A stretch of 16,366 nt of DNA from a candidate division CSSED10-310 bacterium (GTDB lineage: Bacteria > CSSED10-310 > JAFGDC01). The stretch is taken from contig JAFGDC010000403.1 in the NCBI GenBank assembly GCA_016932295.1, forward strand, positions 1 to 16,366, written 5' to 3'. The translations under genes were made by a program, and so were the position numbers. The notes below the pieces were generated by a model that was not told the origin of the DNA, did no database searches, and worked only from the letters and a program-made list of their open reading frames with translations. Below, piece after piece: positions 1 to 16,366 of the stretch (its first letter is position 1; each line of letters opens with the position of its first letter).

Positions 1-1
1 A

Positions 2-1408: not shown

Positions 1409-1539
1409 TCCGGCAGTCCACGAGAAAAGCGCTGGTGGCTTGCGTGACTTGGGTGGCTCGGGAAGTCCTGATGACTCTCCTCATCCGGAAAGAAATGTGG
1501 TATGGGAAATACATGGCAGCATCAAGAAGGAGCAACAAC

Positions 1540-2034
1540 ATGCTGGTTCCAACGATCATACTGGGTGTCATCGCGGCGATCCTGTTGGGGATCGGCATGC
1601 TGCAGGGCGGACAGGAACATGTCAAAGGGCTGCGGGCGGCATACCACATGACCGTTGGAGTGTTACCCCTGCTCATCTTCGCCTTCATCATCGCCGGGAT
1701 GGTTCAAATTCTGCTGCCCCATGAGATGATGGCGCGCTGGGTGGGCGCGGAATCAGGCTTGCGGGGGATTGTGATAGGCACCGTGGCAGGTGGCCTGGCG
1801 CCAGGCGGGCCCTATGTCAGTCTGCCGATAGCGGCCGGATTGCTCAATGCCGGGGCCGGTCTCGGCACCATGGTGGCGTTCCTCACCGGCTGGTCTCTTT
1901 GGGCCGTGAGCAGACTGCCCATGGAGGTTGGTATTTTGGGATGGCGGATCACCCTGGTCAGACTGGCGTGCACGTTCTTCTTCCCTCCCATCGCCGGCCT
2001 GATCGCTCAGTATTTCTTTTCCTGGGTGAAGTAA
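1540..2034 (+). CDS. half-length permease, YraQ/ArsP (DUF318) type
   Basis: A 164-residue membrane protein. The ATG at 1540 is chosen because AAGGAG lies at 1527-1532, seven bases upstream; an in-frame start at 1366 would overlap the previous gene and add a charged, non-hydrophobic leader. Hydrophobic segments lie near residues 3-21, 39-59, 73-103, 108-123 and 137-160. The motif LAPGGPYVSLPI (residues 86-97) and the FLTGWSLW segment match the predicted-permease family that includes YraQ and ArsP, whose members usually have about 300 residues in two similar halves; this one is about one half. It may dimerise to make a full pore. Substrate is unknown; some family members export organoarsenicals, but no arsenic genes are seen nearby. 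The 131-base gap from the previous gene holds no convincing promoter, so co-transcription with it is possible. Confidence 0.7.
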   Translation: MLVPTIILGVIAAILLGIGMLQGGQEHVKGLRAAYHMTVGVLPLLIFAFIIAGMVQILLPHEMMARWVGAESGLRGIVIGTVAGGLAPGGPYVSLPIAAGLLNAGAGLGTMVAFLTGWSLWAVSRLPMEVGILGWRITLVRLACTFFFPPIAGLIAQYFFSWVK

Positions 2035-2042
2035 CTTCAGGT

Positions 2043-2068
2043 AAAAAAACCGGCCCTGATGGGCCGGT
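2043..2068 (-). terminator. intrinsic terminator of the DUF4397-type gene
   Basis: Read on the minus strand, an 8-bp GC-rich stem (ACCGGCCC with GGGCCGGT, 2049-2056 and 2061-2068) and a four-base loop are followed by a run of seven T (the A run at 2043-2049 on the plus strand). It lies 31 bases past the stop of the minus-strand gene. On the plus strand the same hairpin has no T tract after it, so it would stop the convergent permease transcript only weakly. Confidence 0.85.
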
Positions 2069-2098
2069 CGTATCAGCAGACAGAAATTTCGTCAGTCG

Positions 2099-4252
2099 TC
2101 AAAAGCCCGGGGTTCCCAGGCTGTGCACCGAACCCAGTTCCGGTGCGGTTTTGCGCGCATCGATCCTGACGGTGGTGCCGTCCATCAACTGCGCGAGCAG
2201 GAAAACGGATCGCACACCCTCAACGTTCCGCCCCATGAGTTCACTACCATCGATCGGGAAGCGGCGCTCACTGACGGCAAAGACATTGGCCACGGTGCCC
2301 GGCGGCAGGGCCGGCACGTCGAACAGCAGGTCGGCGCGGCGGTCGTGGTTGACATCGAGACCGATGGTGTAGTTCTTGGCGACAAGATCCATGAAGGTAC
2401 CCGCGGCACCGTAGGCGAGATTGCGCCACAGCGGGATCCGGCCCCTGGGAGTGACCAGCATGATGTCTACCGGCCCGATACCGTAGGCGGTGTGAATAGC
2501 GCTCAGGGAGACATCCTGGCTGAGACCGGGGTGGCTGTCGTTCAGAAACAGCACCTGGAGGTCGCCGCGACCGGCCTCGCCGAAGATCACGGCGGTGTAG
2601 AACCGGTCGGGGAAGAACATCATGTCGCGCAGATTGAACACACTGGCGCCTATCCCGGCACCGGCGGGAGCAAGATCGAGGTCATAGAGATCGCCCTGCA
2701 GCTCCAGGTATCCGGTGCTCTCCGTGAACGCCAGGCCGCTGACGGCAACCGTACGCCCGTCCAACCACAGGTCGACATCCGGAACATCGGAAGAAAGGTG
2801 AATCACGCGCAGGTATGAAACGAAGGGCTTGGGATTGATCCGCAATGTATCGCCGTCCCGCAACTGCAGGACCAGGAAGATCTTGTCCCGGGCGATGCAG
2901 TCGGCGTCGCCGCAAGTGTTGTCACCGGGAGATACTTTGCGCACTGCGAAAATAGTGGCGACCTCACCCAGGCCAAGCCGCGGCATCTGGTACACCCATT
3001 CGGCGTAACCATCGGCATCGCCGTCAATACCCAGCATTACGGGTTCACCGGTCAATTGGATGTAATCCGAAACCTCTCCGAAGCCAAATCCTTTCATAAG
3101 GGGCATGAATTCCCAATTGTCCGTATCCATCACCCCGATGCTTACCTTGCCGACACCGGCGGCGGTGTGTGCGATGCGTATCTTGGTAGTGGTAATAAAG
3201 CTCGAATCGAAGTCATCCTCTATGGCCAGAGCCTTGATATCCGCGTTCAGATCATAGGCGACGGCGGTATAGGAGTGACCGGGGGCGAGGTAAATGCCAT
3301 CGACGGTGAGCAACGGCCGACCGACATTGGCGCTGCTCTCCACCACGTCGAACCGGTAGACGTCCGAGGGTAATTCCAGGTACCTGGTGCCGGTCAGGAA
3401 GGTCAGCGATTCCGCCGCCAGGATGGATTGGTCGATATAGACGTCGACCATGGGTGTGTCGGGTGAAAGATGCAGAACGCGGAGGTACGCGGACTGCCCG
3501 GCGCGTGGTTCCAGGCGGACCACGTCGCCCGTCGTCAACTGAACCATCAGCACCACCCGGTCGCCGTCATTGACGACGAACACATTGACGGAACTGCCGG
3601 CGGGCAGCGCGGGGATATCGTATACGAGGTCCGGAACCGTATCCCCGTCCACATCGATTCCGACCACCTGCGGCACGGCGTCAAGCCCGACATATTCACC
3701 CGCCTCACCGTAAGCGAGATCCTTGCCCATCAATGTCGGAGCGCCAGCCAGGGGAAGCAGCCAGACATCCACCAGCCCGATATCGGTCGCCGTGTGGATG
3801 ACACGCAATTCCACATCGGAAGTGGTAATCCGGGTGAAGGAATCCTCCAGGGTCAACCCCCTGATGTCCTCCAGGAACCCGTACGCAACAGCCGTATAAA
3901 ACCGGTCCGCGCCGAGATCCAGGCCCTCGAACTTGAGCACTCCGTCACCGGCGTTGGCGCCCGCGGGGGTTACCACAAAGTCATAGGAACCGGCCGGAAC
4001 GCGGAGGAATTCGGTACCCTGCGCGAATTCCAGGCCGCTCACCACCAGGCTGCCATTGGCGTAAATGTCCACCGCCGGAGCATCGGGCGACAGGTGAACG
4101 GCGCGCACATTGGAGGCGAAGAGATCCAGAGGCTGTTCGATCGGCATATCCACCGGCGGCGGCGCGACCACCGCCGCCTGCAGGGAGACAGTGCCCGGCA
4201 ACAGGACCAGGACCAGGATCAGTGAACGATAGCGCTTCAGCAATGTCTTCAT
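2099..4252 (-). CDS. secreted protein with three long DUF4397-type repeats
   Basis: A 717-residue exported protein. The start is the ATG at 4252 because AAGGAG sits six bases upstream and the product then opens with a classic signal peptide (MKTLLKRYRS, a hydrophobic core, likely cleavage after LQA at residue 26). An in-frame ATG at 4285 lacks such a site. The mature part is three repeats of about 205-220 residues (about 47-250, 256-475, 480-700). Each opens with a LRVxHLSxDxPxVDxY/LxxG-type strand pair, has a FYTAVAYG-type strand, then a second module (xRxIHTAxxIGxVDVxL...GIDxxxDxxxDLVYDxPALPxG...VxxxxQLxDGxTxRI). The first module matches the DUF4397 family of extracellular beta-sandwich domains, function unknown; the second looks like a diverged copy, giving six modules. 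Repeat II has a short Cys-bounded loop (C447, C451). No sortase, PEP-CTERM or other C-terminal anchor is visible, so a periplasmic or released protein is likely. It is transcribed alone. Confidence 0.8.
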   Translation of the reverse strand: MKTLLKRYRSLILVLVLLPGTVSLQAAVVAPPPVDMPIEQPLDLFASNVRAVHLSPDAPAVDIYANGSLVVSGLEFAQGTEFLRVPAGSYDFVVTPAGANAGDGVLKFEGLDLGADRFYTAVAYGFLEDIRGLTLEDSFTRITTSDVELRVIHTATDIGLVDVWLLPLAGAPTLMGKDLAYGEAGEYVGLDAVPQVVGIDVDGDTVPDLVYDIPALPAGSSVNVFVVNDGDRVVLMVQLTTGDVVRLEPRAGQSAYLRVLHLSPDTPMVDVYIDQSILAAESLTFLTGTRYLELPSDVYRFDVVESSANVGRPLLTVDGIYLAPGHSYTAVAYDLNADIKALAIEDDFDSSFITTTKIRIAHTAAGVGKVSIGVMDTDNWEFMPLMKGFGFGEVSDYIQLTGEPVMLGIDGDADGYAEWVYQMPRLGLGEVATIFAVRKVSPGDNTCGDADCIARDKIFLVLQLRDGDTLRINPKPFVSYLRVIHLSSDVPDVDLWLDGRTVAVSGLAFTESTGYLELQGDLYDLDLAPAGAGIGASVFNLRDMMFFPDRFYTAVIFGEAGRGDLQVLFLNDSHPGLSQDVSLSAIHTAYGIGPVDIMLVTPRGRIPLWRNLAYGAAGTFMDLVAKNYTIGLDVNHDRRADLLFDVPALPPGTVANVFAVSERRFPIDGSELMGRNVEGVRSVFLLAQLMDGTTVRIDARKTAPELGSVHSLGTPGF

Positions 4253-4351
4253 GATGTTCTCCTTCACAATGGTAATGGTTGTCATGTTTCGGAGACGCTT
4301 CGATCGCGGCAGCCTGCCCGCTGAACCGGGTGACCGTCAGCGTCTGAACGC

Positions 4352-4402
4352 AGAGTAACAGAACGCCGAAAGCTTGTCAAGAATATTTTTAATTTTTCTT
4401 AG
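4352..4402 (-). promoter_or_regulatory. sigma70-like promoter with AT-rich upstream element
   Basis: On the minus strand a perfect -35 TTGACA (4380-4375) is followed after 17 bases by TACTCT (4357-4352; matches TATAAT at three positions including the key first two T/A and last T). Immediately upstream lies an AT-rich block (about 4381-4400) with A and T tracts like an UP element, standing out from the GC-rich surroundings. It would give a 5' UTR of roughly 95 bases before the ATG at 4252. Confidence 0.6.
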
Positions 4403-4734
4403 ACATTCCTTAGCGACCCTTCGATGCGATTCGTTTCCCAAGGACTTCCCTTTTTCGACACGAAATCATACTTGCCATGCAGTGCATCCAATAAATGAGA
4501 CAGCTCCACAGGTGCCGCAGATATTTTAACTACCGATAGAGAGAACAATTGTTTAACATGTGTCTATTATATATCTTCTCCCCCCGGTGCGCGGTTTCAC
4601 CATGTTTTTCGACAAGTCATGACGATTCACGCCCGCGGAGCCACCAATCCGGTGCCGGGCGAACTCGCGAGGCGCCACGGATATCACGGGATGGCGACGG
4701 GCGGTTGCCTCTCAGAAAAGGATCTTTATTGTGC
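4403..4734. other. intergenic stretch with no supported gene
   Basis: The first part (to about 4580) is AT-rich for this genome; the rest is GC-rich. The longest forward frame starting with ATG in its second half (4619-4738, 39 codons) has no ribosome binding site and runs into the promoter at 4735. A TATTAT hexamer at 4565-4570 could be a -10 box, but the -35 at the right distance (AGAACA) is poor. I recognise no riboswitch or small-RNA family here. Confidence 0.5.
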
Positions 4735-4764
4735 TTGACAATCAGTTGACTGACCATGCATAGT
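4735..4764 (+). promoter_or_regulatory. sigma70-like promoter for the leader ORF and ABC exporter
   Basis: A perfect -35 TTGACA (4735-4740) and CATAGT (4759-4764, four of six matches) are separated by 18 bases. Transcription would begin near 4771, just before the strong ribosome binding site of the 18-codon leader ORF. Confidence 0.55.
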
Positions 4765-4789
4765 AGGCCCGACTTCAAGGAGGAGTTCG

Positions 4790-4846
4790 ATGAGTATGCG
4801 ACGCGGACCTTATACAAGGAGAATCTTCAGCAACCTCAGCGCCTAA
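4790..4846 (+). CDS. 18-residue leader peptide ORF upstream of ABC exporter
   Basis: ATG at 4790 follows an AAGGAGGAG block (4778-4786) by three bases, the strongest ribosome binding site in the window though tightly spaced. The ORF encodes MSMRRGPYTRRIFSNLSA, a basic 18-residue peptide, and stops with TAA at 4844-4846. It sits about 20 bases after the predicted transcription start and 160 bases before the first exporter gene. Too short for a domain match. The position, the strong site and the RNA pairings downstream suggest a regulatory leader whose translation controls the exporter. Precedent: the heterodimeric exporter BmrCD of Bacillus subtilis is controlled through the leader ORF bmrB. 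The alternative is a chance ORF next to a chance purine run. Confidence 0.5.
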   Translation: MSMRRGPYTRRIFSNLSA

Positions 4847-4854
4847 CAGGGCAG

Positions 4855-5005
4855 CCGGGGGGAGAAGTGTATCCTCGGGTCTGGTCGTGTACCTGATTCC
4901 CATCTGAGTGTTCCCATTCACAACCAGCGCGAACGAGAAAAGGACAGCTTCCTTCCCGGCATGCCGATGGCATGTGCCAACCATCACCCACAACGGGAGG
5001 GAAGC
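4855..5005 (+). promoter_or_regulatory. candidate translational attenuator: SD-sequestering stem with a competing pairing
   Basis: Bases 4947-4958 (GCTTCCTTCCCG) pair with 4994-5005 (CGGGAGGGAAGC) over 12 consecutive positions with a single G-U pair. The second arm contains the Shine-Dalgarno GGGAGG (4995-5000) of the exporter gene, so this stem would hide it. The 35-base loop carries a smaller hairpin (CATGCC, GAT, GGCATG; 4960-4974). The first arm can instead pair with 4855-4867, nine bases after the leader stop codon, over 12 pairs with two G-U and one bulged A (4863); that would free the Shine-Dalgarno. This is the two-state arrangement of erm/cat-type attenuators. Pairings were found by eye; no energies were calculated. 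Confidence 0.5.
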
Positions 5006-5006
5006 G

Positions 5007-6800
5007 ATGTTCACCATAATCAGACAGTTCCTGGCCTTGATGGGCCGGCAACGAAAAACCTATTTTCTCGCAGGGGCAGCCCTGATGGTCGCCACCGGCT
5101 TCCAGCTCGCCTTCCCCTGGGTATTGAAACGAGCCGTCGATGCCATTTCAGCCGGCAGCGTGGCCTTGTCGTATCTTGCCTGGCTGAGCGGACTGCTGTT
5201 TGCCGCAGCGCTCCTGGAGGGGGTGTTCACGTATCTGAAGAGCCGCTGGTCGGCACTGGCCGCCGAAGGCACCGTACGCGATCTGCGCAACCGTATCTTC
5301 CGGCGGCTGATGCTTCTGCCGTTCACTTCTCACAACGATATGGAGAGCGGCGACATGATCCAGCGCGCCACTTCGGACATCCAGACCATCCAGCGCTTCC
5401 TGGCCAACCAGGTGGCTGAGGTGGCCCGCACCATCTGCCTGCTCGTGGGAGTAAGCGCGCTCTTGTTCACCCTGCATCGTACGCTGGCCATGTATTCTCT
5501 CACCATGCTGCCGCTCATTTTCGGGTTCTCGTTCTATTTCTTCGGCAAGATCCGCGATCGTTTCGAGCGGTTCGACAAGGCCGAAGCGACGGTCACCTCG
5601 CGCCTCCAGGAGCACCTCTCCGGCGTCCGTGTGGTCAAGGCTTTCGCGCGGGAGGCACATGAAATGAGCCTATTCACCCGGGCCAGTGAAGACATGGCGC
5701 GGGAGGACATCAAGCTGGCGCGGCTGCATGCAATTTTCTGGCCGGCATCGGACCTGCTGTGCATGCTGCAGGTGGTACTGGTGCTGCTGGCCGGCGGATT
5801 GAAGGTTCTATCGGGCGAGATCAGCCTTGGTGCCTTCGTGGCCTTCAATACGTATATCATGTATCTGGTCTGGCCGGTGCGGCAGGTTGGTCGCTTGCTG
5901 GGAGAAATGGGACGAGCCTCGGTATCGTTGCGTCGGATCAGGGAAATCCTCGGCATGCCGGAAGAGCGCCTGACCGAGGGCGCCGGCGCCGATGGGGAAT
6001 TCCGCGGTGCGGTGGAATTCCGCGACGTCGGGTTTTCATACGGACGGGATCGTATCCTGCGGGACATCTCGTTCCGCGTCGAACCTGGGCAGACGGTAGC
6101 CGTGCTGGGCGCCACCGGCGCCGGCAAGACCACCATGATGCATCTTCTCGGCCGCTACTACGACGATTACGACGGGGCCATCTATATTGGTGGCCGCGAA
6201 CTGCGGAGGTTCACCAAACAGGAGGTGCGGTCACGGGTGGGGATAGTGCTGCAGGAACCATTCCTGTTTTCGCGGTCCCTGCGTGAAAACATCGCGTTCG
6301 GCGCACCCGGGGCCAGTCACGCCGATATCCGCGCCATGGCCGTGCTCGCCGCCGTGGATGAAGTCATCGGCGAGTTTCCCGACGGCTACGAAACCATGGT
6401 GGGCGAACGCGGCGTGACGCTTTCCGGCGGCCAGAAGCAGCGCGTGGCGCTGGCCCGCACCCTATTGGCACACACCCCGATCCTGATTTTGGACGACACC
6501 ACCTCGGCACTCGACAGCGAAACCGAGGCGGCGGTCTGCGCCGCCATTCGCGGGTGCGTGGACGGCAGAACCACCTTCATCATCACCCACCGTCTCAGCA
6601 CGGCGGCGGGAGCTGATCGCATTCTCGTGCTGGACCAAGGACGGCTGGTGCAGGACGGCAGCCATGAGGAACTGATCGCGTGCGGTGGCATCTATCGAAG
6701 CATGCACGAACGACTTTGCGACCGACAGGCACAATTAAAGAAGGAATTACGCCATGACAAGGCATGGAAATATCGAGCAGGAATTCGACAGGCGATTTGA
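5007..6800 (+). CDS. heterodimeric ABC exporter subunit with degenerate ATP site (type IV fold, BmrC/TM287-like)
   Basis: A 597-residue half-transporter: about six membrane helices in residues 1-310, then an ATP-binding domain. The ATG at 5007 is chosen for GGGAGG at 4995-5000; a GTG in frame at 4908 has no such site and adds a non-membrane leader. Motifs: Walker A GATGAGKT (368-375), Q-loop Gln416, signature LSGGQ (472-476), Walker B ILILD ending at Asp496, H-loop His528. The residue after Walker B is Asp497 where the catalytic Glu is normal. That loss, with an intact LSGGQ, is typical of the subunit that supplies the non-hydrolysing site in heterodimeric exporters. With the next gene it should form a lipid or drug/peptide exporter in the inner membrane; substrate unknown. 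It overlaps the next gene by 47 bases and is probably translated with it, with expression possibly gated by the attenuator upstream. Confidence 0.9.
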   Translation: MFTIIRQFLALMGRQRKTYFLAGAALMVATGFQLAFPWVLKRAVDAISAGSVALSYLAWLSGLLFAAALLEGVFTYLKSRWSALAAEGTVRDLRNRIFRRLMLLPFTSHNDMESGDMIQRATSDIQTIQRFLANQVAEVARTICLLVGVSALLFTLHRTLAMYSLTMLPLIFGFSFYFFGKIRDRFERFDKAEATVTSRLQEHLSGVRVVKAFAREAHEMSLFTRASEDMAREDIKLARLHAIFWPASDLLCMLQVVLVLLAGGLKVLSGEISLGAFVAFNTYIMYLVWPVRQVGRLLGEMGRASVSLRRIREILGMPEERLTEGAGADGEFRGAVEFRDVGFSYGRDRILRDISFRVEPGQTVAVLGATGAGKTTMMHLLGRYYDDYDGAIYIGGRELRRFTKQEVRSRVGIVLQEPFLFSRSLRENIAFGAPGASHADIRAMAVLAAVDEVIGEFPDGYETMVGERGVTLSGGQKQRVALARTLLAHTPILILDDTTSALDSETEAAVCAAIRGCVDGRTTFIITHRLSTAAGADRILVLDQGRLVQDGSHEELIACGGIYRSMHERLCDRQAQLKKELRHDKAWKYRAGIRQAI

Positions 6801-8547
6801 TGGGACGGTATGGCGCCGGGTGATGGGGTTGCTGGTCCCCTATCGCCGGCGGTATACCGCCATAGTGGCTTCAATGGCGCTGATGGCCGCCGTGGAGGTG
6901 TGTTTCCCCCTGGTGGTGAGGCACATCATCGATGCCGGCGTGATCCCCGGCGACCGCGGGGTCATCTATCAGGGGGCGGCGGGCTATCTCATCCTGGTGA
7001 TTGCACAGGCGGTCATCGTCTGGGCGTTCATCGACGGCTGCGGCAGGGTCGGCGCCCGGGTCATGCGGGATCTGCGCCAGCAGGGATTCACCCATCTCCA
7101 GCGCTTGTCTCTCTCGTTCTTCGACAAAACGCCCAGCGGCTGGATCATGGCGCGCCTGATGAGCGACTCGCAGAGAGTAGGCGAGACCATCACATGGGGT
7201 GCGGTGGACTTTATCTGGGGACTCACCATGATGGCCCTGCTGGCCGCCACCATGCTCACCGTGCACTGGCGACTGGCGCTGCTGGTCCTTGTCCTGGTGC
7301 CGGTCATGCTGGCGGTCTCCATGTCCTTTCAGAAACGCATCCTGCGGATGTACCGGCGGGTGAGAAAACTCAACTCGGAGATAACCTCCAACTACAGTGA
7401 GAGCATTGACGGTATCAAGGTGATCAAATCCCTGGGCTGCGAGCAGTGGTGCGCGGATGAGTTCCGGCAATTGTCCGGGACCATGTTTCAGGACTCCTTC
7501 CAGGCGGCGCTGCTCAATGCGCTGTTCCTGCCGATTATCCACGTCCTTGGCATCACCGGCACCGCCCTGGTGGTTGCGGTGGGCGGGCATTACGCCACCG
7601 GTGGCGGCCTGACGGTGGGAACCATGGTGGCGTTCATCTCCTACACCCGCCGTTTCTTCGATCCCGCCACCGAAATCGCCCGGGTATTCGGTCAACTGCA
7701 GGAAACCCAGGCTTCCGCGGAGAGATTGTTCGGCCTGCTCGACACCTCCCCGGAAATCATCGATACCCCCGCGGCGGTTGCGGGCGGACGCATACGCGGC
7801 GCCGTGACATTCGACCGGGTGAATTTCTCCTATACCGGCCGGGAGCAGGTGCTGCATGATTTCTCACTCACCGTGGAACCGGGCGACACCATCGCCCTGG
7901 TGGGTCCAACCGGCGGGGGCAAGAGCACCATAGTGAACCTGCTGTCCCGCTTCCATGAGCCGAACTCGGGCAGCATCCTGGTGGACGGTGTTGATCTCAG
8001 GGAGCGAACGATCCACTGGCTGCGCTCCCAGATGGGTATCGTCCTGCAGACGCCACGCCTGTTTTCCGGATCGATCCGTGACAATATCCGATACGGCAGG
8101 CTCGAGGCGACGGATGGCGAGGTGGAGCAGGCGGCCGGGCGCGCCGGTGCCCATGGCTTCGTCACGGCGCTCGAGAATGGGTACGAAACCCTGCTGCATG
8201 ACGGCGGAGCGCCCCTTTCCACCGGCCAAAAACAGTTGATCTCCCTCGCTCGAGCCATCCTGGCGGACCCGGCCATTCTCATCATGGACGAAGCCACCTC
8301 GTCGGTGGACCAGGAGACCGAGCATGACATCCAGACCGCGCTGGAGGCATTGCTGCAGGGCCGGACAAGTTTCATCATAGCGCACCGGCTCAGCACCATA
8401 CGCAATGCCGATCGCATCCTGTTCATCGAGAACGGCCGGATAGTCGAAGCCGGCACGCACCATGAACTGCTTGCCAGGCGCGCGCGATACTGCGCCATGC
8501 ACACCCGGCAGTTCCTCGGCGAGGACCTGTCGGAAGCGTTGCCATGA
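6754..8547 (+). CDS. heterodimeric ABC exporter subunit with catalytic ATP site (BmrD/TM288-like)
   Basis: A 597-residue partner of the preceding subunit. The ATG at 6754 lies inside the end of that gene, with AAGGAA (6741-6746) seven bases upstream. The membrane domain covers about residues 15-330. Motifs: Walker A GPTGGGKS (384-391), signature LSTGQ (488-492, not the canonical LSGGQ), Walker B ILIMD at 508-512 followed by catalytic Glu513, H-loop His544. The changes complement those of the partner: this Walker A/B plus the partner's LSGGQ make one complete ATP site, while this LSTGQ faces the partner's Asp497 site. This pairing is seen across obligate heterodimeric exporters such as BmrCD and TM287/288 and supports an AB dimer over two homodimers. 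Substrate cannot be read from sequence. Stop TGA at 8545-8547; a terminator follows at once. Confidence 0.9.
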   Translation: MTRHGNIEQEFDRRFDGTVWRRVMGLLVPYRRRYTAIVASMALMAAVEVCFPLVVRHIIDAGVIPGDRGVIYQGAAGYLILVIAQAVIVWAFIDGCGRVGARVMRDLRQQGFTHLQRLSLSFFDKTPSGWIMARLMSDSQRVGETITWGAVDFIWGLTMMALLAATMLTVHWRLALLVLVLVPVMLAVSMSFQKRILRMYRRVRKLNSEITSNYSESIDGIKVIKSLGCEQWCADEFRQLSGTMFQDSFQAALLNALFLPIIHVLGITGTALVVAVGGHYATGGGLTVGTMVAFISYTRRFFDPATEIARVFGQLQETQASAERLFGLLDTSPEIIDTPAAVAGGRIRGAVTFDRVNFSYTGREQVLHDFSLTVEPGDTIALVGPTGGGKSTIVNLLSRFHEPNSGSILVDGVDLRERTIHWLRSQMGIVLQTPRLFSGSIRDNIRYGRLEATDGEVEQAAGRAGAHGFVTALENGYETLLHDGGAPLSTGQKQLISLARAILADPAILIMDEATSSVDQETEHDIQTALEALLQGRTSFIIAHRLSTIRNADRILFIENGRIVEAGTHHELLARRARYCAMHTRQFLGEDLSEALP

Positions 8548-8552
8548 GAGGC

Positions 8553-8590
8553 GGGGGCGGGGCAATCCCCGCCCCCCGATTCTTTCGTTT
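8553..8590 (+). terminator. terminator of the ABC exporter operon
   Basis: A perfect 10-bp stem (GGGGGCGGGG 8553-8562 with CCCCGCCCCC 8567-8576) with loop CAAT starts five bases after the exporter stop codon and is followed by a T-rich but interrupted stretch (8580-8590). The stem is very strong; the T tract is imperfect. Confidence 0.75.
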
Positions 8591-8630
8591 CAGGCACCGC
8601 GCCGAGGGAGTTGGTGTGCGCACTTCAACC

Positions 8631-8660
8631 TTGCATTTTTATTCGGTACTATTTTATACT
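8631..8660 (+). promoter_or_regulatory. promoter candidate for the giant PKD gene
   Basis: TATACT (8655-8660, five of six matches to TATAAT) lies 18 bases after TTGCAT (8631-8636, three of six). The region is AT-rich compared with its flanks and lies between the terminator and the giant gene, giving a 5' UTR of about 145 bases. Confidence 0.4.
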
Positions 8661-8732
8661 CTGAATCATTAGGATCTAGATTGAACTGGTGGGTGTCGTC
8701 AAGCATTCCGGTCTTCCACACCCGGATTCACA

Positions 8733-8813
8733 ATGGGTATGGCCATGAAGAACGATTGCGGTACGGTGGTCATCATCATTAAATCAGTTGGTTTTTTACG
8801 GAGGTTGATGTGA
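8733..8813 (+). CDS. possible 26-residue upstream ORF overlapping the giant gene's start
   Basis: ATG at 8733 opens 26 codons (MGMAMKNDCGTVVIIIK then SVGFLRRLM) ending at TGA 8811-8813, which overlaps the GTG start of the giant gene (8810-8812). Such overlap allows translational coupling. There is no good ribosome binding site for it and no recognisable product, so it may be chance. Confidence 0.2.
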   Translation: MGMAMKNDCGTVVIIIKSVGFLRRLM

Positions 8814-11800
8814 AGAGATCTTTATCTGCAGCACTGGTTGCAACGGCCCTGCTGGTCGCCTGTTCGATGGTTGGAGCACAACCATCCGCGACCCCCGAGC
8901 CAACCTGGACCACAAGTCCGGAACCGACCCGGACGCCCAGCCCGGAACCGACGGTGACGCCGGAACCGACGCTCACGCCGACGGTGACAGTCACGGCCAT
9001 ACCGTGGAGTGACACGTTCATCATCGCCACGGACGACAACGGCTTAATCTATTATGCAGCCTGTGACGGGCACGGCGGGTTCACGGATTATCGCTTCGTC
9101 CAGCACATCGCCTATAATGATGCCTTGCGTGGTGCCGCCATCAACGATTTCGACGGCGACGGGGATCTCGATTTCGTCACCGGCCGGCGCAACGGTTCCT
9201 ATATCGACTATTACCTGTTCCTCAATGACGGCGCGGACTCCTTCACCTGCGCGAGCCTGGCGGGAACGCTTTCCTATTCTTCACCGATGTACGGCATGGC
9301 CAGCGGTGATCTCGACAATGACGGTCACCAGGACTTTATCGGGGGTTCCGGCGGCAACCAGGTGGGGATTTTCCTCAACAACGGCGACGGCACCTTCACC
9401 GGCACGCCCCTGACGATCGCCAGCAGCGGCCGGGATATCGACACCGCCGATTTCAACAATGACGGCAATCTCGATTTCGTGCGGGGCCATTATAGTACAG
9501 GCTATCTTTACGTCTACCTCGGCAACGGTGACGGTACGTTCGATGCGGGCACCTTGATCTATGATGTGGGCTCCGATCCTTACGGCGTGGCGGCCGGCGA
9601 TTTCGACGACGACGGCGACGTGGACATCCTGGGCATTTCCGGCAGCAGCGGCGACACCATGTTCGCCCAGAACAACGGGGACGGCACCTGGACCGAGGCA
9701 GGCTACGTCGCGACGCTCGATCCCGGCAACCATGCCGCGTACGACGCCTTCGATTTCAACAGCGACGGCATGATCGACATCGTGGCGAGCGACTATTCGG
9801 GACGCAACCTTTGGTACTATCCCCGCACTGGTGCCGTCACCTTCGGTACCCGTGTCCAGATCAACACCTCCGTCACCAACGGCTATACACTGGGCATCTC
9901 CGCGCCGCCATGGGGCCAGATGCCGTACGGCGTACCAACGGGCTGGCCGCTGGCGGATATCACACCGTCACATCAGACCATCGCCAAAAATGGCCTCGCC
10001 GCCTTTGACGGCAGCGGCACCACTGATCCCGGCGGCGGTATCTCGGGCTGGGAGTGGACCTTCGGCGACGGCGGCACCGACAGCGGCGTGAACACCACAT
10101 CGCACACCTACGTGGACGAGGGCGTGTTCACGGCGCGGCTGACCGTCACCGATACGGACGGCAACGCGGCGGTGGAGCCGGCCGAGGTCATCGTGGAGGG
10201 CGACGACCCGGTGGCCGATGCCGGCGGCCCCTACACCTTCGATGAAACGTACGCCAGCGGCGGTATCTACACCGTCCAGCTCGACGGAACGGGTTCTTCC
10301 GACACGGAAGGCCTAGTCTCCTACACATGGGATACCGACGCCGACTTCGGTGACAATTTCGATGACGGCAACGCCGACGGCTGGTGGGTCTCCACCGGCG
10401 CATGGTCGGTGATCGACAATGCCTACAACCAGAGTAATACCAGTCTTTCGCGGACCGATACCTACCTGGACGACAACAGTGCACATCTGACCGATTTCCG
10501 TGTCGATGTCGATGTCACCATCAACGGCGGTGGCGGCCAGGAAGTGCATATCCTGTTCCGCGCCAGGGATCTGCACAACTACTACAAGTTGCTCTTCAGA
10601 GGCCGGAGTTCCGACGACATATTATTCTACCGGGTGGCGAACGGCGCCAATACCAACCTGTGTGAAAACGACCTTTACTGGGATGTGCAACTGAGTCATG
10701 TCTATCATCTCACCGTCGAGGTTCGTGGGAGCTTGTTCCTGGCCTACATCGACGGCAACCTGATGTGCGTCGCCCGGGACACCACATACAGTGAGGGCCT
10801 GATCGGCCTGTCCACGTACCAGACCGATGCCACGTTCGACAACTTCCAGGTCAGCTCCCTGGAGAGCAGCGATGCGCAGCCGACCTTGCGGTATTATGCC
10901 GGTACCTACCCGGTGTCGCTCACGGTCGAGGACGCCGCCGGGCAATCGGATACCGATGCCACCACGGTCACCTGTTCGGTAAGCGCCGGCCCTGCGGCCG
11001 ATGCCGGAGGACCGTACGTCCTGCCTGAAAGCGTGGCGGATTGCGGGGCCTGGATGATTCCCTTCGACGGCAGCGGATCCAGTGACGATTACGGGATTTT
11101 TTCCTACCTGTGGGACTTCGGGACAGACAGCTTCGATGGTGCTGAAATCGATGCCGCGAAATGGGAATGCTCGGACAACGTGGTACAGAATGACCAGATC
11201 ACCATCAGTGGCGCGAGCGCCTGGGGAAACCGTTATTGCTTCACGCGGAAAGCCATGGTGAGAAGCGAGGGCCAACGCATCGAAGTGTCGGTCTGCCCGG
11301 TAAGCGGCAACTTCATGATCGGCTGGAAGGACAACAACGCGGGGACGAGTTATACGGACATGCCTTACGCGCTGTATTTCTATAGTGGCACTCTCTATGT
11401 TTATGAAGACGGCACCTCGCGGGGCAGCATCATTCCTTACAGCTTCAGCACCTGGTACGATATCAAGATCGAGCTGAAAGGCGGCGCCGGCGCCATATAT
11501 TATTTTAAGGAATCCAGCGCCACGGACTGGTCGACGATCTATGACTCGAATTACTCCTCGGAATCGCCGTTGCGACGGGGGCTGGTGGTCAATAGCGGCG
11601 CTCAGACCATGGACAACTGGCGCGAATTGGCGGCGGGTGAATCCGGCGAATACTACCTGTACGAATCGTGCAACCTGACGCTGACGGTCACTGACAATGC
11701 CATGCAGACCGACACCGACCTCACCACGGTGACCCTGTCCCCCGGCAGCGCTCCGGTAGCGGAAGCCAACGGTCCATATGCAGTAAACGAAGCCGCCGCC

Positions 11801-14800
11801 GCGGGCGGGTTATGGACGGTCATCTTCTCATCGGCCGGAACCACCGATGACAACGGCATCTGCTCGTATGAATGGGATTTCGATGACGGCGGCACCAGCG
11901 CGGAGGCGAATCCGACCCATGCGTACGCGGCGACCGGTACCTACAACGTGAGCCTCACGGTCCACGACCACGCCCTGCAGAGCCACACGGACACCGCGGA
12001 GGTGACGGTGGCGCTCAATGATCCACCGGTTGCCGACGCCGGTCCCGATCAGAACCTGGACGAAAGTGATGCCGTCCAGGGGCAGTGGACGGTGCAGTTC
12101 GACGGTTCAGGTTCGACAGACGACTATGGCATCTACGACTATGAGTGGGATTTCGGCGACGGTGGTTCCGGATCCGGAGTCAACCCGACCCACGTGTACG
12201 ATGCCATCGGGATATACCTCGTCACACTGACGGTCCGGGACAATGCCCTGCAATCGGATGACGACACCATGACGGTCACCGTCTCGGCCAACGATCCCCC
12301 GGTGGCCGACGCCGGCGGCCCCTATACCGCGCTGGAGGGTGATGCGGTGGACGGCCACTGGACCATTCCACTGGACGGCACCGGCTCGACGGACGACGTG
12401 GAGTTGATCGCCTACGCGTGGAATCTCGGCCGTGACACCTTCGACGGCACCTATCTCGACGCCGAAAAATGGTACGCCTCCATCGGCATCACCCAGGACA
12501 ACGCGCTCCGGATGGTGGGGGCCAGCAGTTGGGTGCACTTCTGCTTCAGCAGGGACAGCTACCCCAGGAACCGCGGCATGTTTATTCAGGCCAAACTGAT
12601 GGCGGAAGGCAGCGTCACCTGCATGTGGGGATTCAAGGATGAAACCACTGGCAACAGCTACACCAACCTGCCGTACGCCGTTTATCTCAACGGAACATCC
12701 CTGCTGATCTACGAGGACGGCAACAACCGCGGAACCGTCGGAAGCTTCTCGGCGGGCGTCTGGTACGATTTCAAAATCGAGCTGAAACCCACCGCGGGCG
12801 CTTTGTACTACTACCGGGAAAGCGGCCAGCCGACCTGGACGCTGCTCTACGATTCCGACTACTCGAGCGAAGCGCCGCTGCGCAAAGGCACGGTCGTCAA
12901 CGGCGGGACCGTGTGGCTGGACGATTTCGAGGAAACCACCGCCGGAGCCACGGTCGACTACAACGCGTACGGTGAATGTGATATCTCCCTGACGGTGTAC
13001 GACAATGCCGGCCAGTTCGATGTGGATACCACCACCTTCACCATCACGGGTTCGGACGACCCAATAGCCAATGCCGGCGGACCATATTTCGGCCATCTCG
13101 ATACCCCCATCGTCCTCGACGGCTCCAACTCCACCGATGACAACGGCATAGTCCAGTACCAGTGGACCTTCGGCGACGGCGCCACAGGTGGCGGCATTAA
13201 ACCCATCCACACCTATACTGAACTTGCCGGCTTCACCAAGCTGTGGGCGGTTTCCGCAACCGCCAGCAGTGAAATCCCCTCCAGTTACTCGGCCATGAAA
13301 GCCACCGGAGAACCCAATGTTACGTCATGCAGCGACAATGTCCAGGCCTGGAAGACCGCTGTTGCCGATGACGGCGAGCACTGGCTCGAGCTGACCTACG
13401 CAGAGGAAATTGACATCGGCACAATCCGCATCCACGAAACGTTCAATCCAGGTTTCGTGACCAAGATCGAAGGGTACGACAGCGGCGACAACCTAGTGGA
13501 GATCTGGACCGGAACCGACACCACTGCCTGCAACGACTACCTCACCGCCGTCATCGATCCTTCCTTCACCACCGATACCATCAGGATTTACTGCGATACG
13601 GATGTACCCGGCTGGAACGAGATCGACGCGGTGAGCATATCCACCGAGATCCCGGCACAGACCAGTTTCACCGCAACATTGACTGTCTTCGACGAGGCCG
13701 GTCATTCCGATTCCGACAGCACTTCCGTGTATCTCAGCACGCTGCCCATGGCGATCTGCGTGCCCTGGCAATTCGAGGGTGAGCAGGAAGTGCCGCACCC
13801 GGTCTGGTTCGAGGATACCGGCCGCACCACACAGAGCAAGACCGTGATCCTGAAGGGTACCGCCAAGGGAATAATGACGCCGCTGACCTACGAATGGGAT
13901 TTCGGCGACGGCTATTCCGACGGGCCGCACACGGTAACCGACAAATGGGAGATCGAGGCGACTCATCAATATACCGGCATCTCGGAAGGGCAACCCATTT
14001 CAGCCACGCTGATCATCCGTGACGGGGAAGGCCGGGAGGTCACGGACACCTATCCAATGCTGATGCAGCCCAAGTCGCTCGATGTGCAAGCCGACATGGC
14101 GGTGGATGACGGCTTGTGGTACATCCACAAGCAGCAGCAACGCACCAGCACCAATTACGGCTCCTGGTGGTACAGCACAACCTATTCTTGTTCCATCACA
14201 GGTTCCTCCATCCAGTCATTCGAAATCAACGGCCACCTGGAGCTCGGCGACCTCGAGGAAGACCCGTACGTGGAGACGGTTCTGTTCGGTCTGCGTTACT
14301 TGTTCACCACGCTGTACGCAACGGAGATCTCGGTGCAGGCCGGCGGTGATCCGGACAGCAATGGCAACGGCCTGGGTATCTCCGGCGATACCAACCGGCC
14401 GATCTACGAGGGCGGCATGATCATGGACGCCATCGCCGCCACCAACACGCCTGAGACCATCGTGGAAACAGGTGCGGCAAACATCGCAGGCCGTTCATAC
14501 CTGGATGTCCTGACTGACATGGTCGACATGTACGCCTACGGTCTCGACGATGCCGGCAGCAACCGCGGCGGTTGGCGCTACAGTTGGAACAGCGACGCCG
14601 ACAACTCGGCCTGCCAGTGGGCCGCCATCGGCATGACGGCCGCGGAAGACTACTTCGGCATCGCGATTCCCCAATGGATAAAGGATGAAAATCTGCTATG
14701 GCTGAATTACAGCCATAACACCACGTATGGTACCTTCGGTTACACGTCCGCTTCGGCCGGCTCCTACGGCTGGTTCTCCACCACCGCATCCGCCATGGTG

Positions 14801-16366
14801 CAGCTCGCTTTCGATGGGATCGAAACCACCGACCCGCTGTGGACCGGCGGCGAGGATTACTTTGCCAACAACTGGTCGAGCTTCTGGAGCGTCGACAACA
14901 CCTACGGATCATACGCGTTCGTCAAGGCCATGCGCCTGGCTCGGCCCAACCCCGTGATCACGCTGAACGCCACCGGTCTGGACTGGTACAACGATCCGGA
15001 TTACGGCCTCAAGAAGTACCTGGTCGGCGATCAAACCAGCAACGGGTCTTGGAACGCCGGCAACTGGCCGAGTTCGCACATCAACCTCAGCACTCCGTGG
15101 TCCGTCATCATGCTCAGTTCCTCGCTCTTCACCAGGCCGCCGGTATCGGTCATCAAGGCCAATGGGTCGAGCGTGAACGAGATGTATTGGGGCCAGGGCA
15201 TGGAGTTATGCTTCGACGGCACCGGGTCCTACCATCTCGACCCAACCAAGACCATAGTCGATTACGAATGGGACCTGGATGAGGACGGCATCTTCGACGA
15301 ATGCCTGACGGGCGAATGCTGCACCACCTGGACCGAACTCGGGGACTACCAGGTAGCGCTGCGGGTCACGGACAACTCAAGCCCGGTCCAGCAGGACACC
15401 GCGTACTGCCTGATTCACGTGGTGGAACCGCCCCATGCCCCCTTCTCGGTCATCGGCGGACCCTATTCCTGCACCGCCGGCCTGGCCGTCGAACTGGACG
15501 GCAGCGGCTCCTACGACATCGATCCCGGCGACTCCATCACCTCGTACTGGTGGGATCTCGACGGCCAGCCCTGGAATTTCGACACCTACCAGGGACCGGA
15601 ATATGCCACCGTCAACCATGTCTTCTCCACGCCCGGCACCGTGCAGATCGGACTCAAGGTCTGGGACGACGGCGTCTTCAACGATGACATCAGCATGGAC
15701 GACAACAGCTACACCTACGTGGTGGTGGAAGCCAACATCGCGCCGATTGCGGAAGCAGGCGGACCATACGAGGTCGACGAAGGCGTACAACTCCTGCTGG
15801 ACGGCACCGCGTCCTTTGACCCCAACGGCGATCCCATAGAGTATGCCTGGGATCTGGACAACGATAGCCAGTATGATGACAGCACGTCGGATCAGCCCGC
15901 CTCGACCTGGATGTCCGACGGCGTGTACCAGGTCGGCCTGGAAGTCACCGATACACTTCTGGAGGGCTACGACACCGCCCAGGTCACGGTCAACGATCTC
16001 GAGCCCACCGCCGCCATCGGCGGCGACGGTTCTCTCTATGTCAACCAGTCAGGCTCCTATTCGGCGGCCGGCTCCACCTCGTATCCCGACAGCATCGTGC
16101 TGTATGAATGGGACTGGGAATACGACGGCGTCACCTTCAATCCATCGGGTGATCAGGGTGTGGCGCAGACCCATGTGTGGGCATCGGCAGGCACGTACAC
16201 CGCCGCGGTCCGGGTGACCGATGCCGACGGCGATATGGACACCGCCTCCATGCCTGTCTCGGTCTCGGATCCGCCCACCGCCACGCCGACGCAGACCCCG
16301 ACCCAGACCCCCACCTTCACGCCCACCTCATCACCGACCCGTACCCCCACCACCACCCCGACGCCC
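8810..16366 (+). CDS. giant exported multidomain protein: FG-GAP propeller, 12 PKD-type domains (four nested), alpha/alpha toroid (3' end missing)
   Basis: The frame from GTG 8810 runs to the last base without a stop: 2519 residues and still open. GGAGG at 8800-8804, five bases upstream, fixes the start. The N-terminus (KR, then a hydrophobic core LSAALVATALLVAC) has a lipobox LVAC with Cys18 and Ser at +2, which suggests a lipoprotein sent to the outer membrane; cleavage after VGA by signal peptidase I is the alternative. Order: TP linker 28-63; FG-GAP/VCBS propeller about 66-380; PKD 1 (385-462); PKD 2 with insert (466-724); PKD 3 with insert (727-978); PKD 4 and 5 (981-1160); PKD 6 with insert (1162-1415); PKD 7 with insert (1416-1643); PKD 8 (1644-1755); toroid about 1757-2108; PKD 9-12 (2109-2486); TP linker from 2490. 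PKD calls rest on repeated AGGPY, LDGSGS, YxWDFGDG and HxYxxxGxYxVxLTVxD strands. Likely surface adhesion or glycan contact; no protease or glycosidase catalytic motif was recognised. Confidence 0.85.
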   Translation, partial: MKRSLSAALVATALLVACSMVGAQPSATPEPTWTTSPEPTRTPSPEPTVTPEPTLTPTVTVTAIPWSDTFIIATDDNGLIYYAACDGHGGFTDYRFVQHIAYNDALRGAAINDFDGDGDLDFVTGRRNGSYIDYYLFLNDGADSFTCASLAGTLSYSSPMYGMASGDLDNDGHQDFIGGSGGNQVGIFLNNGDGTFTGTPLTIASSGRDIDTADFNNDGNLDFVRGHYSTGYLYVYLGNGDGTFDAGTLIYDVGSDPYGVAAGDFDDDGDVDILGISGSSGDTMFAQNNGDGTWTEAGYVATLDPGNHAAYDAFDFNSDGMIDIVASDYSGRNLWYYPRTGAVTFGTRVQINTSVTNGYTLGISAPPWGQMPYGVPTGWPLADITPSHQTIAKNGLAAFDGSGTTDPGGGISGWEWTFGDGGTDSGVNTTSHTYVDEGVFTARLTVTDTDGNAAVEPAEVIVEGDDPVADAGGPYTFDETYASGGIYTVQLDGTGSSDTEGLVSYTWDTDADFGDNFDDGNADGWWVSTGAWSVIDNAYNQSNTSLSRTDTYLDDNSAHLTDFRVDVDVTINGGGGQEVHILFRARDLHNYYKLLFRGRSSDDILFYRVANGANTNLCENDLYWDVQLSHVYHLTVEVRGSLFLAYIDGNLMCVARDTTYSEGLIGLSTYQTDATFDNFQVSSLESSDAQPTLRYYAGTYPVSLTVEDAAGQSDTDATTVTCSVSAGPAADAGGPYVLPESVADCGAWMIPFDGSGSSDDYGIFSYLWDFGTDSFDGAEIDAAKWECSDNVVQNDQITISGASAWGNRYCFTRKAMVRSEGQRIEVSVCPVSGNFMIGWKDNNAGTSYTDMPYALYFYSGTLYVYEDGTSRGSIIPYSFSTWYDIKIELKGGAGAIYYFKESSATDWSTIYDSNYSSESPLRRGLVVNSGAQTMDNWRELAAGESGEYYLYESCNLTLTVTDNAMQTDTDLTTVTLSPGSAPVAEANGPYAVNEAAAAGGLWTVIFSSAGTTDDNGICSYEWDFDDGGTSAEANPTHAYAATGTYNVSLTVHDHALQSHTDTAEVTVALNDPPVADAGPDQNLDESDAVQGQWTVQFDGSGSTDDYGIYDYEWDFGDGGSGSGVNPTHVYDAIGIYLVTLTVRDNALQSDDDTMTVTVSANDPPVADAGGPYTALEGDAVDGHWTIPLDGTGSTDDVELIAYAWNLGRDTFDGTYLDAEKWYASIGITQDNALRMVGASSWVHFCFSRDSYPRNRGMFIQAKLMAEGSVTCMWGFKDETTGNSYTNLPYAVYLNGTSLLIYEDGNNRGTVGSFSAGVWYDFKIELKPTAGALYYYRESGQPTWTLLYDSDYSSEAPLRKGTVVNGGTVWLDDFEETTAGATVDYNAYGECDISLTVYDNAGQFDVDTTTFTITGSDDPIANAGGPYFGHLDTPIVLDGSNSTDDNGIVQYQWTFGDGATGGGIKPIHTYTELAGFTKLWAVSATASSEIPSSYSAMKATGEPNVTSCSDNVQAWKTAVADDGEHWLELTYAEEIDIGTIRIHETFNPGFVTKIEGYDSGDNLVEIWTGTDTTACNDYLTAVIDPSFTTDTIRIYCDTDVPGWNEIDAVSISTEIPAQTSFTATLTVFDEAGHSDSDSTSVYLSTLPMAICVPWQFEGEQEVPHPVWFEDTGRTTQSKTVILKGTAKGIMTPLTYEWDFGDGYSDGPHTVTDKWEIEATHQYTGISEGQPISATLIIRDGEGREVTDTYPMLMQPKSLDVQADMAVDDGLWYIHKQQQRTSTNYGSWWYSTTYSCSITGSSIQSFEINGHLELGDLEEDPYVETVLFGLRYLFTTLYATEISVQAGGDPDSNGNGLGISGDTNRPIYEGGMIMDAIAATNTPETIVETGAANIAGRSYLDVLTDMVDMYAYGLDDAGSNRGGWRYSWNSDADNSACQWAAIGMTAAEDYFGIAIPQWIKDENLLWLNYSHNTTYGTFGYTSASAGSYGWFSTTASAMVQLAFDGIETTDPLWTGGEDYFANNWSSFWSVDNTYGSYAFVKAMRLARPNPVITLNATGLDWYNDPDYGLKKYLVGDQTSNGSWNAGNWPSSHINLSTPWSVIMLSSSLFTRPPVSVIKANGSSVNEMYWGQGMELCFDGTGSYHLDPTKTIVDYEWDLDEDGIFDECLTGECCTTWTELGDYQVALRVTDNSSPVQQDTAYCLIHVVEPPHAPFSVIGGPYSCTAGLAVELDGSGSYDIDPGDSITSYWWDLDGQPWNFDTYQGPEYATVNHVFSTPGTVQIGLKVWDDGVFNDDISMDDNSYTYVVVEANIAPIAEAGGPYEVDEGVQLLLDGTASFDPNGDPIEYAWDLDNDSQYDDSTSDQPASTWMSDGVYQVGLEVTDTLLEGYDTAQVTVNDLEPTAAIGGDGSLYVNQSGSYSAAGSTSYPDSIVLYEWDWEYDGVTFNPSGDQGVAQTHVWASAGTYTAAVRVTDADGDMDTASMPVSVSDPPTATPTQTPTQTPTFTPTSSPTRTPTTTPTP
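8891..8998 (+). repeat. Thr-Pro-rich linker, N-terminal
   Basis: Residues 28-63 of the giant protein consist largely of TPEPT, SPEPT and TPT units, encoded by a degenerate six-base ACN-CCN pattern. Such linkers separate a membrane anchor from surface domains and are often O-glycosylated. It directly follows the lipobox region and leads into the propeller. Confidence 0.85.
9005..9960 (+). other. FG-GAP/VCBS beta-propeller region of the giant protein
   Basis: Five calcium-loop motifs of the D-x-D/N-x-D-G-x-x-D type recur about every 45-55 residues: DFDGDGDLD (113-121), DLDNDGHQD (167-175), DFNNDGNLD (214-222), DFDDDGDVD (264-272) and DFNSDGMID (315-323). Between them are FLNNGDGTF-like strands. 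This is the FG-GAP/VCBS integrin-like propeller, which usually has six or seven blades and binds calcium; blades at the two ends are probably too diverged to see. Confidence 0.8.
10355..10861 (+). other. insert A: LamG/ConA-like domain inside PKD 2
   Basis: Residues about 516-684. PKD 2 begins normally (DPVADAGGPY, VQLDGTGSSD, LVSYTWD) but its GDG-to-HTY loop is replaced by about 170 residues, after which the final strand resumes (YYAGTYPVSLTVEDAAG). The insert opens FDDGNADGWW, has alternating beta strands, LFRARDLHNYYKL-like and YIDGNL strands, and closes TFDNFQV. That pattern is common to LamG and DUF1080-type jelly rolls that bind or cleave glycans. No catalytic residues could be assigned. 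Confidence 0.55.
11126..11635 (+). other. insert B: beta-sandwich domain inside PKD 3
   Basis: Residues about 773-942. PKD 3 runs AGGPY, FDGSGSSDD, FSYLWDFGTD and is then interrupted; its last strand appears afterwards as YYLYESCNLTLTVTDNAMQ. The insert has a Trp-rich ConA/LamG-like pattern (SFDGAEIDAAKW, GWKDNNAGTSYTDMPYALYF, TWYDIKIELKG, SNYSSESPLRRG, TMDNW). It is a clear paralogue of insert C. Confidence 0.6.
12434..12943 (+). other. insert C: beta-sandwich domain inside PKD 6
   Basis: Residues about 1209-1378. It sits between IAYAWNLGRD and the closing PKD strand YNAYGECDISLTVYDNAGQ. It matches insert B through its length: TFDG..LDAEKW, GFKDETTGNSYTNLPYAVYL, VWYDFKIELK, SDYSSEAPLRKG and WLDDF, with no large gap. 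The two arose by duplication of a whole PKD-plus-insert unit or by copying of the insert. Confidence 0.6.
13232..13645 (+). other. insert D: discoidin (F5/8 type C)-like domain inside PKD 7
   Basis: Residues about 1475-1612. PKD 7 proceeds through QYQWTFGDG and HTYTELAG, then a different sandwich begins: ATASSEIPSSYSAMKATGEP, DGEHWLELTYAEEIDIGTIR, IHETFNPG, TIRIYCDTD, GWNEIDAVSI. Afterwards the PKD finishes with TSFTATLTVFDEAGHSDSD. The WLEL...ETFNPG...EIDAV pattern is that of galactose-binding-like discoidin domains. Confidence 0.6.
14078..15133 (+). other. alpha/alpha-toroid region resembling prenyltransferase/squalene-cyclase repeats
   Basis: Residues about 1757-2108, lying between PKD 8 and PKD 9. 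It is mostly helical, with repeated units pairing a hydrophobic helix and a G-x-W/F-G-Y turn: AVDDGLWYIHKQQQ...GSWW; RGGWRYSWNSDADNSACQWA; GTFGYTS...GWFSTTASAMVQLAF; NTYGSYAFVKAMRL; GSWNAGNWPSSHI...TPWSVIMLSS. This is the look of QW/prenyltransferase-type repeats in six-barrel toroids. The DxDD acid motif of squalene-hopene cyclase is not seen, and the exported setting argues against terpene cyclisation; a structural or binding role is more likely. Confidence 0.55.
16277..16366 (+). repeat. Thr-Pro-rich linker at the window end
   Basis: From residue 2490 the giant protein becomes TPTQTPTQTPTFTPTSSPTR-like and is still in this linker when the window stops. At the DNA level it is a degenerate ACN-CCN hexamer repeat. 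It resembles the linker near the N-terminus. Confidence 0.85.

Follow-up and report, generated by a model that had tools for sequence, protein, structure and literature searches.

Display of a binding domain from a split immunoglobulin-like (Ig-like) stalk domain is already known in kind. In RTX adhesins, according to two reports, an Ig-like stalk domain is discontinuous in sequence, a ligand-binding domain buds from it with both termini on one side, and the split Ig-like domain serves as a criterion for locating ligand-binding domains (PMC12077191, PMC10865825). Here we describe a giant protein encoded in a 16,366-nucleotide stretch of DNA (the window; contig JAFGDC010000403.1, positions 1 to 16,366, assembly GCA_016932295.1) from a candidate division CSSED10-310 bacterium, in which four PKD domains are split by beta-sandwich inserts. 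Like AhLap of Aeromonas hydrophila, FrhA of Vibrio cholerae and MpIBP, the window protein has inserts, here predicted to bud from split Ig-like stalk domains; it differs from them in that the host is a PKD domain, and single members of its family carry as many as five split PKDs, with no fewer than four types of insert in all. RTX nonapeptide repeats (PF00353) are missing from the precomputed Pfam list of P0003, a relative of 2570 amino acids that is 62% identical to the window protein, whose own C-terminus lies beyond the window. The original prediction had called the architecture unusual for an adhesin. That holds less for the principle of display, given the RTX adhesin reports, than for its particulars: as far as searches go (the literature searched included few subscription papers), the PKD host, the several split PKDs in one protein and a site that is empty or variously filled are new.

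Results

PKD halves are held far apart in four domains

Profiles for the first half of the PKD (to WDFG, 45 positions) and for the second half (37 positions, starting just ahead of the HTY strand) were built from family members and searched separately with a cut of 8 bits, weaker matches (0.2-3.9 bits) being ignored. At this cut the window protein shows N-halves and C-halves in alternation throughout, a single C-half coming after each N-half; both halves of the PKD belonging to the conserved family core fall below it (3.9 and 2.8 bits). The distance between N- and C-profile ends is 0-40 residues in intact PKDs and 178, 171, 171 and 153 residues in PKD 2, 3, 6 and 7, respectively, and all eight flanks of these four are matched by half profiles with 20.6-58.0 bits. 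No insert interrupts PKD 1, 4 and 5 or the four PKDs that follow the core, all of which close normally, so that the predicted contrast between split and uninterrupted domains is borne out. The features are as follows; half-profile matches are in protein residues, and model numbers (residue minus 465) refer to a structure model of residues 466-1645 (1180 residues).

8810..16366, +, giant protein gene (2519 amino acids; last gene of the window, open at its 3' end)
9953..10198, +, PKD 1, uninterrupted (N-half 382-419, C-half 429-463)
10208..10339, +, PKD 2 N-terminal flank with strands A to C (N-half 467-510, 53.5 bits)
10340..10882, +, insert A in PKD 2, CBM66-like ConA sandwich
10883..10972, +, PKD 2 C-terminal flank with strands E to G (C-half 697-721, 31.3 bits; model strand 227-230)
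10991..11122, +, PKD 3 N-terminal flank (N-half 728-771, 55.0 bits)
11123..11641, +, insert B in PKD 3, ConA-like (no Pfam or PDB sequence match)
11642..11737, +, PKD 3 C-terminal flank (C-half 956-976, 20.6 bits; model strand 480-486; low model confidence from model residue 488)
11753..12019, +, PKD 4, uninterrupted (half profiles)
12023..12292, +, PKD 5, uninterrupted (half profiles)
12296..12430, +, PKD 6 N-terminal flank (N-half 1163-1207, 58.0 bits)
12431..12949, +, insert B in PKD 6, second ConA-like copy
12950..13051, +, PKD 6 C-terminal flank (C-half 1381-1414, 20.8 bits; model strand 916-921)
13061..13216, +, PKD 7 N-terminal flank including HTY strand (N-half 1418-1455, 43.2 bits; model strands to 1001-1003)
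13217..13654, +, discoidin (F5/8 type C)-like insert D of PKD 7, in the loop that follows the HTY strand (Pfam F5_F8_type_C E 7.6e-05, below cut-off)
13655..13729, +, PKD 7 C-terminal flank (C-half 1616-1640, 21.3 bits)

The Pfam annotation of the window protein found PKD (PF18911/PF00801) and FG-GAP repeats and missed the split hosts and the inserts. With the inserts removed, the joined flanks of PKD 2 (E 5.9e-07) and PKD 7 (E 1.8e-15) score above the Pfam cut-off for PKD_4, while those of PKD 6 (E 5.5e-05) and PKD 3 (E 0.071) stay below it.

The inserts leave the host at two neighbouring loops

In PKD 2, 3 and 6 the W is kept and the GDG turn after the WDF strand is lost to the insert; the turn is present in PKD 7 and in the intact PKD 1 and 5, and reads DDG in PKD 4. 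The model places the strands of intact PKD 5 at 616-618, 627-631, 643-649, 655-657, 662-665, 669-679 and 684-693, and those of split PKD 6 at 707-710, 718-724 and 734-744 and, beyond the insert, at 916-921, 925-933 and 938-948. An equivalent of the HTY strand is retained in PKD 2 (PTLRYY, model 227-230), PKD 3 (GEYYLY, 480-486) and PKD 6 (TVDYNA, 916-921), and the insert thus replaces only the turn and the short strand after strand C, not everything from the GDG turn to the HTY strand as originally proposed. In PKD 7 the HTY strand (model 1001-1003) lies inside the 153-residue gap and precedes the insert of about 146 residues, as had been proposed. The notion of a single shared loop therefore holds for PKD 2, 3 and 6 and fails for PKD 7, whose insert occupies the adjacent loop.

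The predicted joint fold draws on several lines of evidence. The flank blocks of PKD 2 and PKD 6 are modelled with good predicted local distance difference test (pLDDT) values, whereas pLDDT is below 50 over the rest of the PKD 3 C-terminal flank and much of PKD 4 (model 488-497, 499-539), a stretch thinly covered by most alignment rows. Couplings between the N- and C-flanks of split PKDs were detected. The two flanks of the split unit in the relative from locus L003 match, across the insert, a PKD of the archaeal surface-layer protein 1l0q, their best structural match; this PKD (residues 311-391) has no long insert, unlike the L003 unit. For the whole 1180-residue model, the top Foldseek rows are the Aureispira grappling hook protein GhpA (9fly, 9flw), with template-modelling (TM) scores of 0.08-0.17 and a root-mean-square deviation of at least 40, a likeness only as strings of sandwiches.

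Identity of the inserts

The inserts had been read as three LamG/ConA-like domains and one discoidin-like domain, and this reading stands with differing support. Insert A resembles the CBM66 module of SacC in both sequence and fold, its closest solved relative being 4azz; CBM66 there (4azz, 4b1l, 4b1m) sits on the levanase of Bacillus subtilis, while insert A lies inside a PKD that belongs to a large protein. A weak Pfam match of insert A is to 3keto-disac_hyd (E 0.0031). Both type B inserts are ConA-like by model only, with no Pfam family above cut-off and no PDB sequence relative. Insert D reaches 23.3 bits (E 7.6e-05) with F5_F8_type_C against a curated cut-off of 28.2, and we therefore call it discoidin-like only. 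A further type in the family, G, has no Pfam family above cut-off for the insert tested, that of L003. CBM66 modules bind terminal fructosides, and discoidin and LamG-type families are often ligand-binding. The CBM66-like and discoidin-like inserts suggest carbohydrate or surface ligands for these domains.

Split PKDs across the family

A search with the core (residues 1640-2110) gave 240 proteins at E <=0.001, 120 of them listed. The analysed set of 125 proteins consisted of P0001, P0003-P0122 and four proteins from loci L001-L004; P0002, identical to P0001, was left out, and P0004 came from another search and does not belong to the core family. There is slight redundancy, since L001 is apparently P0008 and L002 seems near-identical to P0030. 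Among 1402 adjacent N-C pairs, 1160 have a gap of 0-40 residues, none a gap of 40-80 and 242 a gap above 80, and because the counts divide in this way chance is no issue for the long gaps, 219 of which span 140-220 residues and 18 span 300-400. Other neighbouring halves are second-first (1315), second-second (167) and first-first (58), the last two kinds indicating that some halves were missed by the profiles.

The 242 inserts were classed as A (CBM66-like; 49), B (164), G (17, about 365 residues long), D (discoidin-like; 4), LamG (1; Laminin_G_3 E 1.3e-31), unassigned (1) and missed halves (6). With the six presumed missed halves excluded, split PKDs occur in 91 of the 125 proteins, one to five in each. 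Of 263 matches to the profiles for A, B, G or D in these proteins, 233 have a first half directly before them and a second half directly after. Among the remaining 30, those in P0004 and P0006 are outside a complete PKD, and P0021, P0070 and P0080 start inside or near the insert; most of the other 25, by a reading by eye that was not counted by program, have PKD-like flanks that are below the cut or overlapped by the match. Two type A matches share one stretch in P0042, and three do so in P0047. Type B also occurs as a free domain, with no PKD half found around it, in P0004 (29% identical to the nested form), L009 and L010. Source names of split-PKD proteins, among the matches listed, include Deferrisomatales, Thermodesulfobacteriota, Geobacter, Citrifermentans, Planctomycetota, Nitrospirae, Gammaproteobacteria and tubeworm endosymbionts. 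Type B is sporadic: of 297 genomes surveyed in one phylum, 4 gave a match, including that of L003; apart from L003's genome, its nested form occurs among these only in L008.

One site in empty and filled forms

Across 124 proteins, the PKD immediately before the core is empty in 65, filled by type B in 30 and by type D in 4; in 25 it is missing or not clear. Of the 65 empty units, 33 were used to train a profile, whose scores were compared with those of a general PKD profile. The trained profile scores higher for 30 of the 32 empty units kept out of training, for all 30 type B hosts with their flanks joined and for three of the four type D hosts treated likewise (not P0006); elsewhere it does so rarely, for 29 of the 1094 remaining intact PKDs and 1 of the 209 remaining split ones. 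The pre-core hosts thus look like one domain, with and without an insert. In a quickly built tree of 99 cores, type D forms one clade (the window protein, P0003, P0005 and P0006; support 100) and type B falls in two (8 and 22), a single clade not being rejected (approximately unbiased test, p-AU 0.468); the count of changes on the core tree fits gain and loss of inserts alike.

The rest of the protein and its neighbours

The remaining features of the giant protein are:

within 8810..16366, +, signal-like N-terminus; linker rich in TP
9308..9481, +, FG-GAP_3 repeat region, best of five stretches (Pfam PF13517 E 1.8e-27), likely a beta-propeller
13727..15139, +, conserved family core: PKD 8 variant (ICVPW..YEWDFGDG) and about 340 residues
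15137..16267, +, four more uninterrupted PKDs after the core (N/C halves at residues 2110-2486)

The motif LVAC within the signal-like N-terminus (window 8810-8870), a possible lipobox, is not conserved in P0003. The part of the core at 14060-15130 has no Pfam family match; the domain list of one relative, P0116, contains PF00432 and PF13243, a hint at an alpha/alpha toroid. In P0077, P0089, P0096, P0111, P0115 and P0118 the core is interrupted by about 140-155 residues near residues 1777-1792 of the window protein, and each of the six has a PA14 domain (PF07691) in its domain list; the break is perhaps another nested domain in another host fold. The C-termini of the window-clade relatives P0003, P0005 and P0006 have a hydrophobic segment with basic residues behind it, as would fit anchoring at the surface. 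Several family members have instead an Arg-rich C-terminal tail (...SNEASATPxxRxRRR-like), and the two kinds of end are possibly two sorting signals. We note that P0029 is named 'dyslexia-associated protein' by its source, a misleading annotation that probably derives from a K319L-like PKD profile.

Two overlapping ABC exporter genes (4908-8547) lie immediately upstream of the giant gene. Further away are a 728-residue protein with three DUF4397 stretches (2099-4285, - strand; E 1.3e-72) and a short ArsP_1-like permease (1366-2034), perhaps a half-size form, which covers only positions 11-135 of the 294-position profile.

Discussion

The prediction that each split PKD consists of a discontinuous Ig-like host and a complete insert is well supported, by the alternation of halves, the empty and filled forms of one site, the flank couplings and the models, and is weakest for PKD 3, the least supported of all, and PKD 7. 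Were the flanks instead incomplete or degenerate domains lined up with the inserts in tandem, forming no joint PKD fold, one might expect the weak joined-flank score and low model confidence of PKD 3. The alternation in the window protein, the occurrence of one site with and without an insert, the couplings, the confident flank blocks of PKD 2 and PKD 6 and the structural match of L003 across its insert make this very improbable. More improbable still, to the point of being negligible, is that flank and insert together make one larger known domain that is PKD-like at its ends: no Pfam match spans a whole split unit, insert A by itself matches a complete solved domain, and the free type B domains contradict such a reading.

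We consider it likely that the nested fold is right and that the four inserts bud from a stalk with their far faces outward, binding carbohydrate or other surface ligands. The PKD chain would form the stalk, in which each split PKD is predicted to fold from two sequence-distant flanks with a complete beta-sandwich budding between them, in three cases from the turn that follows strand C and in the fourth from the loop beyond it. Since a split PKD would anchor both ends of its insert at one point, on the same side, the far face of the insert would be left free; it may then be directed away from the stalk, and the role of the protein may be adhesion or substrate capture. A less probable alternative, to which we give perhaps one chance in a few, is that the fold is nested but the inserts are structural or enzymatic, acting as stalk-stiffening spacers or being remnants of ConA-fold hydrolases. 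The weak 3keto-disac_hyd match of insert A, the glycosidase chains among the structural matches of the inserts, and the lack of a Pfam or PDB sequence relative for type B and of a Pfam family for type G are compatible with such roles. A binding role is favoured by the closest solved relative of insert A being a carbohydrate-binding module, by the often ligand-binding families to which discoidin and LamG-type inserts belong, and by the precedent of ligand-binding domains on split domains in RTX adhesins.

That the split PKD acts as a socket, as first suggested for the window protein, is strengthened because relatives place other domains at the same position. We lean, if only slightly, towards the view that the PKD fold offers a general evolutionary socket at the turn following strand C, in a family that extends over several bacterial phyla. 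It would accept unrelated domains (two ConA types, LamG and a 365-residue domain, with discoidin one loop on), giving an array of exchangeable binding heads in which a given stalk position is empty, ConA or discoidin depending on the species. If the reading of split PKDs with binding inserts is right, the turn after strand C would lend itself to grafting, as a natural point at which to display a domain on a stalk, and the position of an insert would mark which domains are binding heads. A search for PKD halves held apart would then expose many hidden binding domains in the giant proteins of environmental bacteria.
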